From an uncultured bacterium (GTDB lineage: Bacteria; Spirochaetota; Leptospiria; Leptospirales; Leptonemataceae): a DNA stretch of 64,000 bases. The position numbers were made by a program, and so were the translations under genes. The notes beneath the pieces were generated by a model. That model saw only the letters and a list, made by a program, of their open reading frames with translations. It did no database searches and had not been told where the DNA came from. The number at the start of each line of letters is the position of its first letter. Positions within the stretch are counted from its first letter, which is position 1. Positions 37,193-62,862 of the stretch are shown one piece after another. The DNA lies in assembly GCA_937928085.1 (NCBI GenBank), contig CALFVU010000006.1, forward strand, positions 62,001 to 126,000, written 5' to 3'.

Positions 37193-38470
37193 TTAGAGTT
37201 CCATTGTAAATCTTTTAAATAAATATACAAATCTCAAAGTAAAATTTTGTATTACTGATAAGAAAACCACATATAAAAAACCTATTGTATAAATAAAAAA
37301 AGGTATAATCAGATATTTTTGGTTTTGATAAGCATAATAAGCCGTAAGAATACAATAAAGAAAAAAGATACATTCTACAACTATGATTGAATTTAATTTT
37401 TGAAAGTATTTTTGTCGCTGTGATAAAGAATCATATTTAGATTCTATTTTATATTTTGAGATTCGCTCAAAAGTAGATTTTTTATCTAGTAAGGCTTCTA
37501 AAAATGCTTTAGTGTTAGAAATAGAGATCTCTACTCCTAAAATCATTAAAAAAGGTAAATTTGCTTTTATGATTTTTGGAATGAATTTAATTACTGTATG
37601 GATAGACCCTTTATACCAGCGGAATTGTTGAGATTGAAAAGACTGCATTATAGAAGGTAAATTAGCAGGATTTTCTAAATCCACAAAATATCGAAATTTC
37701 CAATCCATTAGTTGAGCTCTGTAAAATAAATCAAAATCTTCGATAAGTGTGTCTGATTCACCAATTTTCTGCATATGATATAGATTATTTTCGCCATATT
37801 CCAGTAGTGCCATTAAAATTCATCCAAAAATTCGAACCATTACGAGCAACTAATTCGAGGACAAAATGTCCATCAATTTCAAATAATTGTAGATAATTTA
37901 AAAAAGAATAATTTCTGTTAATATGTTCCCAACAAGTTTGAATCATACCAATATACCAATACAAAGATTATTAAATAAGGAATTGTTTTTACAAGAAAAT
38001 TTTCTTTTAAAAATAGGGTCAGAATCAAAAATAGCAATAAATCCCGCGTTTACCTTTTTAAGTCCTTCTTTTAATACGCTTGCTTTATGTCCTTTTCTAA
38101 TGTCTCTATGTATATGTTCGATTTTATATCCTTTTTGTGTAAGCTCTTCCACAAGTTGAGCTACCATATGGACAGTTTCATCAGTTGAGTCCTCTATAAC
38201 TTGAATGTTAAGTTTTTCTCTAAACCAAAAAATGTTTTTTACAGAATTTAAAAGTCTTTCTACAACATGAATTTCTTTATAAATAGGAAATTGTATAGCA
38301 ACTTCAGATATTTTATCAAGTGGTGTTTTTTCTAAATCGATTGGTTTTTTCTTGCAATTGGATATGCAATAGATTTTATATTTTGTATATCGATAAATCA
38401 TCAAATACAAATGCATTCCGTAAAAAGAAGAAGAAAGACATCAACTGTATAAAGAAAGAAACTAGTAATC
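37193..38470 (-). pseudogene. Family 2 glycosyltransferase (cellulose synthase-like), disrupted by frameshifts and stops
   Basis: N-part VAIQFPIYKEIHVVERLLNSVKNI..IQVIEDSTDET; middle IGMIQTCWEHINRNYSFLNYLQLFEIDGHFVLELVARNGSNFWMNFNGTTGIWRK* in another frame; C-part GESDTLIEDFDLFYRAQLMDWKFRYF..QQFRWYKGS in ORF 37193..37813. Confidence 0.9.
37946..37961. repeat. 8-bp tandem direct duplication TACCAATA x2 inside the glycosyltransferase pseudogene
   Basis: taccaatataccaata; deleting one copy fuses the ORF 37943..38416 frame to the downstream IGMIQTCWEHIN frame. Confidence 0.9.
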
Positions 38471-50820: not shown

Positions 50821-51855
50821 TTAAAAGAAAAATACAATAGTTGGTCCGTAAAGCAAGTATTGAATCTTTACAATGTTTCTATCCATTATTTCGTAGTAAA
50901 CAATACTAAATCCTACATAATTTGGAAAGATTAAATTAAAGACCATATTGAAAATGGTACGATTTTTTGCTAAATCTTTATTTATGTTTAAAATTAGTGA
51001 TAAAAATCTTTGATAATCTAAAAATAGATTTATTCCAATACGTTGAGAGTAATTTTTTGAATTTATTGTATACCTTAAAGGTTGAATCCATTCTTCTGTA
51101 TTTGTATAATCATAAAACTTTAAAAAAAAATTATTCAAAGAGAAATTTTTTGATTCAAAAGGAATCGTTTTTCCAACAAAAGAATCAATTTTTATTTTTG
51201 TTTCTTCCAAGCTGTAGATATAAAAAGTGTCGAATTGCCAATTTTGGATGGGAAGTTTAAAGCTTAAACCGATTTGAAAGTTAGGATCTTCATTATATAC
51301 TTTTATATTTGCTTGAGGAAAAAAAATCCAGCTAGATTGAATGAAATTAAATGATGTTAAGTTTTTAAATTGTGAACTTTGAATGGGTCCAATGCCCTTG
51401 AAGTAATTATAACTAATAAAAGGAGTTGTCGCTTCGTTGTGAAATAAATTGTATCTTATTGTGGTGTTTTGGATTGCTATTTTTGTTTCTATGGTTTGCC
51501 ATAAATTATACAAAGGATTTCGATCTTGATTAGGTAATTTCATTGCATAATTTAAATAAGAAAACTGCCAGTTTTGTTTAAAGCCTAAAATCTGAAATCC
51601 ATTCCCATTTCCGTATCCATCATATTTTTTATTATCCTGATATATTTCTAAATTGTTCGTTTGTTTGAATTGCAAAACAGGAATGGGAATTTTGTTTATG
51701 TTAGAACCTACTCCATTAAATACAGAAAAAACGAACAACCAAGAATTAATGTCTATGTTGATTTGATTTTTTTCTGATAGTTTGAATTTGGACTCATTTG
51801 GAAAAATAGAAATTAACAATACGAAATATAAAATCAATAATGTTTTGATTTTCAT
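50821..51855 (-). CDS. Envelope/beta-barrel-like protein, paralogue A
   Basis: Signal peptide; shared blocks with 52206..53270 (SFKLPIQNWQFDT, VYNEDPNFQIG, LFLDYQRFLSL); ends in aromatic residues. Confidence 0.65.
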   Translation of the reverse strand: MKIKTLLILYFVLLISIFPNESKFKLSEKNQINIDINSWLFVFSVFNGVGSNINKIPIPVLQFKQTNNLEIYQDNKKYDGYGNGNGFQILGFKQNWQFSYLNYAMKLPNQDRNPLYNLWQTIETKIAIQNTTIRYNLFHNEATTPFISYNYFKGIGPIQSSQFKNLTSFNFIQSSWIFFPQANIKVYNEDPNFQIGLSFKLPIQNWQFDTFYIYSLEETKIKIDSFVGKTIPFESKNFSLNNFFLKFYDYTNTEEWIQPLRYTINSKNYSQRIGINLFLDYQRFLSLILNINKDLAKNRTIFNMVFNLIFPNYVGFSIVYYEIMDRNIVKIQYLLYGPTIVFFF

Positions 51856-52029
51856 AATCTTTCATCTGAAAAACTACATTATTTTAATATCATTACAGAT
51901 AACGAATTTTTTTTTATTTTAAAGTGCAACTATTTTTATAAAATTCTCTTAAGAAATTTGGTTAAAAAAATTTTACAAAATACTTAAAAAAGGATTGCTT
52001 TTTTTAATAGCAAAAAAAGTATGGTTTTA

Positions 52030-52143
<114 letters not shown>

Positions 52144-52205
52144 ATTTACTTTTAATTCTTTTACTACAAGGATCTTCTTAATAAAATTTTTGTTTCTCTT
52201 TGAAT

Positions 52206-53270
52206 TTACAGTTGAAAAACAAATGTTGGCCCGATTAGCCAATATCGAATTGTACCTACACTTCTTTCACTAAATTCATAAAAAACATTGAAACCAAAAT
52301 TTTTTGATAAAATTAAACTTATGACTGTATTCGATACCCAGCGAGCAAAAGTAAGATCTCTTCTTAGTGTAATTTTCAGCGATATAAATCTTCTATAATC
52401 CATAAAAATAGAAACCCCCAATCGATGGGAAAAGTATTTTTTTCTTATAGTTAGGTTTAAAGGAAGTATCCATTTTGTAGGATCTGAAAAATCGTATAGT
52501 CCAAAGGATAAGTCTTCGAAATTATTCTTTATTTCTCCTATAGTAGTTTTTAAATCTGTGTTTACTCTTTCGAAACCGTAAGAATATGTAGTGTCGAACT
52601 TCCAATTTTGAATAGGAAGTTTAAAACTAACTCCTAATTGGGGGTTCGGATCTTCTACGTATACTTTTACATCAACTTTAGGGAAATGAATCCAATTCTG
52701 AGTAGAAACACTATACAATGAAAAGTTATTCACAATAGAATAATCGTGAGGTCCAGAACCTTGAAAATGAGAAAATCCTATAAAAGGTTGTATTTGATTA
52801 TTTTTATAAAACGTATATTTCATCAAAAATACGTTTCCAGTGACTTTTGTTTGGACTTGTTGCCAATAATCTAATATTTGAATTTGATCAGAATTTGGAT
52901 ACATAGGAAAGCTAAAATGAACATATAGAATCTGCCAGTTTTCTTTAATTGCCATAAATTCTAATCCTATACCTTTGCCTTTTCCAGAAAAATTTTTATT
53001 ACCAGAGTGAATTTTTAAATTATCATTTTGAGTTGATTGAAATACTCGTATAGGAATCTGATTAAAATTTGTTACTTCTCCCCAAAAAGGACTTATAAAA
53101 AAAAACCATTGATTAAAATTAAATTGAGGTCTTTGAAAAATAATTTGTTTTTCTTTGGTTTCTTTATTTTCTGTTGCAAAAAGATGACTAATAACAAATA
53201 CTATTATTAAAAGCATTTGTGATTGTTTCATTTTACATCCTTTGAATTTTAAAATTTTAAAATCAAACAT
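52206..53270 (-). CDS. Envelope/beta-barrel-like protein, paralogue B
   Basis: Paralogue of 50821..51855 (VYVEDPNPQLGVSFKLPIQNWKFDT, SIFMDYRRFISL, RYWLIGPTFVFQL); likely start at internal MKQSQMLLI. Confidence 0.65.
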   Translation of the reverse strand: MFDFKILKFKGCKMKQSQMLLIIVFVISHLFATENKETKEKQIIFQRPQFNFNQWFFFISPFWGEVTNFNQIPIRVFQSTQNDNLKIHSGNKNFSGKGKGIGLEFMAIKENWQILYVHFSFPMYPNSDQIQILDYWQQVQTKVTGNVFLMKYTFYKNNQIQPFIGFSHFQGSGPHDYSIVNNFSLYSVSTQNWIHFPKVDVKVYVEDPNPQLGVSFKLPIQNWKFDTTYSYGFERVNTDLKTTIGEIKNNFEDLSFGLYDFSDPTKWILPLNLTIRKKYFSHRLGVSIFMDYRRFISLKITLRRDLTFARWVSNTVISLILSKNFGFNVFYEFSERSVGTIRYWLIGPTFVFQL

Positions 53271-61835: not shown

Positions 61836-62440
61836 TTATTTAAGTATTCCATATTCAAATACTTTTAAAATTTCTAAAATTTGTTGTTCTATTTCCTCTT
61901 CTTTGGGTTTCGTATGATTCCAATTTCGTACGATTTCTTTTATGGCGCCAAAAATTAAAATAGAAGAAATTTTTGTATTTTCCACTTTTATTATTTTATA
62001 TTTTTTACCTCTTTCCAAAATGTTTTCTATTGCTTTAAAAAAAATCTTTTGATATTTTTTTATAATTTCGTTAAATTCTAAATTATGATTAAAAGGAGAT
62101 TCAATGATCATTTTTATTAAGTCTTGATGATTATAAAGTGTTTTGAACAAGGAAATTAAGTTTTTTTCTATATTTTCTTTAAAGTTTGATGGATTGATTT
62201 TTACTTCTTTGTTCAATTGAATCAAATCTGAAAGTAATTCTTGATATAATTTACGAACTAAAACAGAAAAGATTTCTTCTTTACTTTTAAAATATAAATA
62301 AAATGTACTTCTCGATAATCCTGTATCTCGAATAATATCCGATATACTTGTTTGATGAAACCCTTTTTTTGTAAAAACAGATCTTGCTGCGTTTAAGATA
62401 TCTTCTCTATTTTGTTTTTTTTTTCTTCTCTTAAGCTCAT
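61836..62440 (-). CDS. TetR-family regulator, 5' end frameshifted at an A10 tract
   Basis: Frame of ORF 61836..62225 extends upstream as QNREDILNAARSVFTKKGFHQTSISDIIRDTGLSRSTFYLYFKSKEEIFSVLVRKLYQELLSD (TetR HTH); the ATG at 62440 is out of frame by 1 nt across T10 (62415-62424). Confidence 0.85.
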
Positions 62441-62862
62441 ATAATGATTTTTTTTAATATTTCTTTTATTGTCAATTTTTTTTATAAGTATTGTTTATTT
62501 TTTATTTTTTGATTTTTTTAAAAAACAACAACAATAGAATTTTTTTTAGCTTTTTTATCTAAGATTTTGAATAGTTTAAAACAAATACTTTATATAAAGA
62601 AAAATTATAAAACAAATGCTTTCAAAAATAAAACCTGTGTATTTAGCAATAATGTAAAATTCATATTTAAAAAAAATTTTGAATCGTCAATTATTATTAA
62701 TAATCTACGCAATGGATTTTAGATAAAATTCTTTAGAAAAATAAAGCTTTAGTTGCGAAGAAAAAAATTTTAGATTTCATTTTTGGAGTTCACAAATATC
62801 ATAAGTTCTTATCAATAAAAAAATAGTTTTCAATTCCTTAAATTCAATTATAATGATGTGAT

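Follow-up and report, generated by a model that had tools for sequence, protein, structure and literature searches.

A FadR-like TetR regulator gene one base out of frame at an A10 tract, possibly through a homopolymer under-call in a low-GC draft genome

One-base frame breaks at long A/T runs are known both from genes of AT-rich symbionts and from sequencing consensus. For the frameshifted genes of Blochmannia vafer, full-length transcripts have been reported at about 30% (PMC3017870), and transcriptional slippage in A/T runs has been found to consist mostly of insertions, yet no restored frame was seen in that study (PMC5574713). In nanopore R10.4 consensus most homopolymers shorter than 11 are resolved, while trouble persists at 10 and above and under-calling climbs sharply near 11 (PMC9262707). 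Here, we describe a TetR-family gene (tetR) with such a break in a stretch of 64,000 nucleotides (the window) and compare it with the remainder of its genome (G000; 2.3 Mb, 27% GC, with flagellar genes and not strongly reduced) and with same-genus relatives. We favour the reading that an A11 run has been recorded as A10 through a one-base homopolymer under-call in the draft consensus, to which we give a probability of roughly 0.5.

According to the sequence-only reading of the window, the helix-turn-helix (HTH) of this gene and the ATG at 62440-62438 are out of register by one base at an A10 tract, and this is correct in all of its coordinates (Table 1). The tract is exactly ten bases long and the ATG frame and the HTH frame join inside it; from the ATG, the other frame translates as MSLREEKKNKIEKIS and then a stop codon. 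Also as that reading had it, one extra A would restore a TetR protein of the expected size: the window would then read MSLREEKKKQNREDILNAAR, for a product of 201 residues, which is the length of the orthologue in the relative G002. Its further claim, that the HTH is preceded by no in-frame ATG, GTG or TTG, holds for CTG and all ATN codons as well. From the TAA to the HTH the codons are AAA AAA TCA TTA TAT GAG CTT AAG AGA AGA AAA AAA AAA CAA AAT AGA GAA GAT, without any of these up to helix 1; the first ATN codon is an ATC within helix 1, and an alternative start in this frame is thus ruled out. A second lesion was not found across the 205 codons, an open frame that has a chance probability of ∼3e-10 given the local non-coding composition.

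Table 1. Features of the tetR region of the window and split genes at A/T runs in the same genome
Feature	Position	Strand	Run	Basis or remark
fliE, next gene downstream of tetR, an adjacency restricted to this genome	61274..61663	-		Pfam; gene order in relatives
TetR/FadR-like protein, stop-free frame of 205 codons lacking a start codon	61836..62453	-		Translation; Pfam TetR_N and TetR_C_4; NCBIfam FadR (below cut-off); PDB 3whb
TetR_N helix-turn-helix, residues 19-63 of P0001	62265..62399	-		Pfam; 37/46 residues identical to the G002 orthologue
A tract, site of frame loss	62415..62424	-	A10	Interrupted in relatives
ATG, counterpart of the start of the intact orthologues	62438..62440	-		Misses the HTH frame by one base
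In-frame TAA, upstream closure of the HTH frame	62454..62456	-		Translation
TTGACA, -35-like box	62470..62475	-		TTGAC also conserved in the tetR upstream regions of G002 and G003; the promoter scan is at chance level
Split gene tetR	62415-62424		A10	One base short
Split gene cmoB-like	C6:200475 (L171:3176-3185)		A10	Profile 73-120 / 125-322
Split gene mobA-like	C10:29528 (L245:2729-2738)		T10	Profile 4-87 / 89-187
Split gene tmk (thymidylate kinase)	G000:C6:337248-337256 (L178:8249-8257)		T9	Profile 5-31 / 28-196
Split gene ribD	G000:C6:133368-133377 (L134:7368-7377)		A10	Contiguous in G001 and G003

The HTH matches Pfam TetR_N (PF00440) with an E value of 1.1e-15 over residues 19-63, which places the protein in the TetR family, and the C-terminal domain matches TetR_C_4 (YsiA-like; E = 1.7e-4), passing the Pfam cut-off. 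Over its full length the best NCBIfam match is Bacillus FadR (NF053878), at 80.1 bits against an equivalog cut-off of 200, and the FadR structure with PDB code 3whb is among the best PDB matches. As the NF053878 score falls under the cut-off, these profiles identify the protein as a FadR-like TetR regulator and not as a proven FadR.

Full-length orthologues were found among 41 genomes in two of the same genus, G002 (64% identity) and G003 (63%); a second strain was not found, and a scan of genome contigs gave distant TetR relatives only. Both orthologues are intact, with the N-terminus MGLREEKKK(L/F)NREAILNSAR beginning at the ATG that corresponds to 62440-62438. Looking up the tract length in relatives, as had been proposed, showed the A tract to be interrupted and non-slippery in both (G002 reads GAAGAAAAGAAAAAA), so that the long run is the derived state of G000. 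Since the orthologues are intact and their tract is interrupted, the one-base contraction in the window would be derived, and the window would not hold a conserved switch. Compared with the G002 orthologue, 37 of the 46 HTH residues are identical (80%), as are 84 of the other 142 (59%). On the G000 branch the ω of tetR is 0.29 (bootstrap 0.13-0.87), within the range of fliE (0.44) and the radical-SAM neighbour (0.19), with fliF at 0.06; all of these values are approximate because synonymous sites are near saturation. The substitution pattern indicates that selection has acted on the frame for the greater part of the period since divergence from the relatives. Accelerated evolution of tetR was rejected, as its divergence is about that of fliE. 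Decay as a plain old pseudogene is not supported, given the absence of a second lesion together with the branch ω of 0.29.

The gene stands alone in G000, 5' of fliE-fliF, an order that was not seen in relatives. In G002 and G003 it is the first gene of a tetR-STAS-antisigma operon, divergent from genes for an acyl-CoA dehydrogenase, a MaoC-like protein, an SDR and a thiolase; these gene names were read from the translations and STAS was additionally confirmed. This linkage of tetR to fatty-acid genes was not seen in G000. The palindrome ATGATGATTCATCAT lies between the operon and the divergent fatty-acid genes in both relatives; a search of 602 kb of G000 gave no copy of it. Four genes of this locus were searched for, and orthologues of the acyl-CoA dehydrogenase, MaoC-like, STAS and anti-sigma genes are absent from G000 and G001; as G000 is 92% complete, their absence is likely and not certain. 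Gene order is too scrambled between G000 and G002/G003 for frameshifts to be surveyed by synteny. Two related genes arranged in tandem (50821-51855 and 52206-53270; 50824-53135 of the window, - strand) have relatives within ∼25 kb of tetR in both G002 and G003, despite the otherwise scrambled order.

The A10 tract of tetR is not rare in G000, where 183 A/T runs reach ten bases or more, 128 of them inside intact ORFs of all kinds. We surveyed all 183 with their flanks and used runs below ten bases from the same sequence as controls (602 kb in total, made up of the stretches around these tracts plus part of contig C6, with ∼370 coding A/T tracts of at least nine bases). At least five genes, tetR included, are split with family or orthologue support, all at A/T runs of 9-10 and all one base short, and each of the five gives two halves that adjoin along the profile or the orthologous gene (Table 1). 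The earlier proposal was to search other regulator genes for such tracts; further one-base breaks do occur at A/T9-10 runs, and they are not confined to regulators: the same lesion in cmoB-like, mobA-like, tmk and ribD shows that the event is not regulator-specific. No verified split gene was found at runs of 6-8 bases, against >4,000 intact coding runs. With every split gene entered as a run one base longer, 4/12 inferred 11-mers, 1/119 10-mers and 0/241 9-mers are short by one base; the difference between 10 and 11 bases has a Fisher P of 2e-4, with five split genes in all. Break candidates lacking family or orthologue support (L177:1594, L245:4398, L225:1474 and L200:1580) were left uncounted, and L270:3723 was dismissed because it resembles an ordinary gene start. 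The split ribD is the sole ribD match in G000, and it is weak support for an essential function since the ribD of G002 is frameshifted too, at a site that is not near a long run (L284, about 1067-1114).

Several other observations were made along the way. In G002, an A10 run (C2:260459-260468; L106:12459-12468) apparently splits a large gene. A/T runs of at least ten bases number about 38-55 in three similarly sized genomes of the genus, compared with the 183 of G000, and the run-length ceiling of G000 is about one base above theirs. Within the window, a glycosyltransferase family 2 gene (37193-38416, - strand) is broken into two parts (Pfam Glycos_transf_2 and Glyco_trans_2_3); its frame changes lie away from long homopolymers and it looks like a real decaying gene.

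The sequence-only reading had listed four explanations without ranking them; a phase switch gained no support, nor did an old pseudogene, and the survey favours the assembly error, with a slippage-tolerated contraction in second place. An ON/OFF switch of the regulator by replication slippage would suit an A10 near the 5' end of an otherwise intact regulator gene. It is very improbable: a phase-variable gene would keep its hypermutable repeat in relatives or vary in it between strains, whereas both orthologues here have an interrupted tract, the 183 comparable tracts lie mostly inside intact genes of all kinds, and the identical lesion is present in ribD and in non-switch genes such as tmk, cmoB and mobA. 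Programmed -1 ribosomal frameshifting, for which the 0 frame GAA GAA AAA AAA AAC offers A AAA AAA / A AAA AAC, is just as hard to credit. The slippery heptamer is in phase and the direction needed is indeed -1, but it is not conserved in the orthologues, a search for a stimulator hairpin 3' of the tract gave none (MFE z = +1.48), there is no clear Shine-Dalgarno-like stimulator, and A7-A8 runs would serve equally and yet show no verified split genes. With the tract not conserved and no stimulatory structure, both ideas are without support. That the regulator is the remnant of a lost fatty-acid oxidation locus, just broken at its weakest point, is distinctly doubtful. The operon beside tetR in G002/G003, the absence of its searched members from G000 and G001, the relocation 5' of fliE and the missing palindrome speak for it; the want of a second lesion, the well conserved HTH and an ω below 1 speak against it, it leaves the lesions in tmk, cmoB and mobA without explanation, and with an assembly that is 92% complete, the operon may simply lie in the part not assembled.

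There remain a real contraction and a consensus error. If A10 is real, RNA polymerase might slip and add an A in some transcripts, giving some full-length regulator. The low GC content and the density of coding tracts would suit this, as would a lesion common to several otherwise intact genes, tmk among them, and tetR has the make-up of a slippage-rescued gene, being otherwise intact and selected and having just one indel, which falls in a long A/T run. Blochmannia vafer has eight such genes evolving at normal rates (PMC3017870). The uniform sign of the lesions fits insertion-dominated slippage (PMC5574713); as slippage mostly inserts bases, a tolerated contraction predicts the same sign as an under-call. 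No tested frameshift (tetR, cmoB, ribD) is common to a relative, however, and poly(A) is a poor template for slippage by the E. coli polymerase relative to poly(T) (PMC6260861), and we consider this rescue rather unlikely. The wider proposition, that a 2.3 Mb low-GC bacterium with flagellar genes tolerates one-base A/T contractions, including those in tmk and a FadR-like gene, with a polymerase that slips efficiently, is unlikely too. The breaks show what marks homopolymer consensus errors: one-base shortages of the same sign in unrelated genes, with a steep rise with run length. A consensus error is favoured because the affected fraction climbs steeply, from 1/119 to 4/12, when a run is longer by a single base, because tmk is normally essential and because no tested break is common to a relative; the cause most likely lies in the consensus and not in the chromosome. 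Eight 11-mers and two longer coding runs that are read in frame argue against an under-call; runs of 11-16 exist, and a hard truncation at 10 by the assembler was rejected on that account. With an under-call, tetR would be an ordinary FadR-like TetR regulator, selected until recently, whose real chromosomal copy has A11 in its 5' coding run; the draft-genome consensus would have dropped one base of the 11, and an intact 201-residue protein would start at 62440.

One-base breaks at runs of ∼10 A/T bases in G000 should not be equated, in the absence of reads, with gene loss or switches. Should they be real, they would offer testable cases of frameshifts tolerated through slippage and would extend an endosymbiont phenomenon beyond strongly reduced genomes; a tolerated frameshift of the kind already known from AT-rich symbionts is, however, less likely than a run-length reading error. 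The protein resembles Bacillus FadR (YsiA; NF053878, PF08359, 3whb) in its top NCBIfam family, in TetR_C_4 and in the 3whb match, and its orthologues adjoin fatty-acid oxidation genes; it differs in scoring below the 200-bit cut-off and in that the fatty-acid operon was not found in G000. As in the poly(A)/poly(T) genes of Blochmannia and Buchnera (PMC3017870), a one-base indel lies in a long A/T run of an AT-rich genome, in genes otherwise intact and selected and with core functions among them, whereas none of the tested frameshifts of G000 is common to another species, they may be consensus errors, and the genome, at 2.3 Mb, is not strongly reduced. The platform behind G000 may not be nanopore R10.4, but the likeness to homopolymer errors in long-read (meta)genomes (PMC9262707) is that one base is missing, at runs of ∼10-11 only, in scattered unrelated genes.
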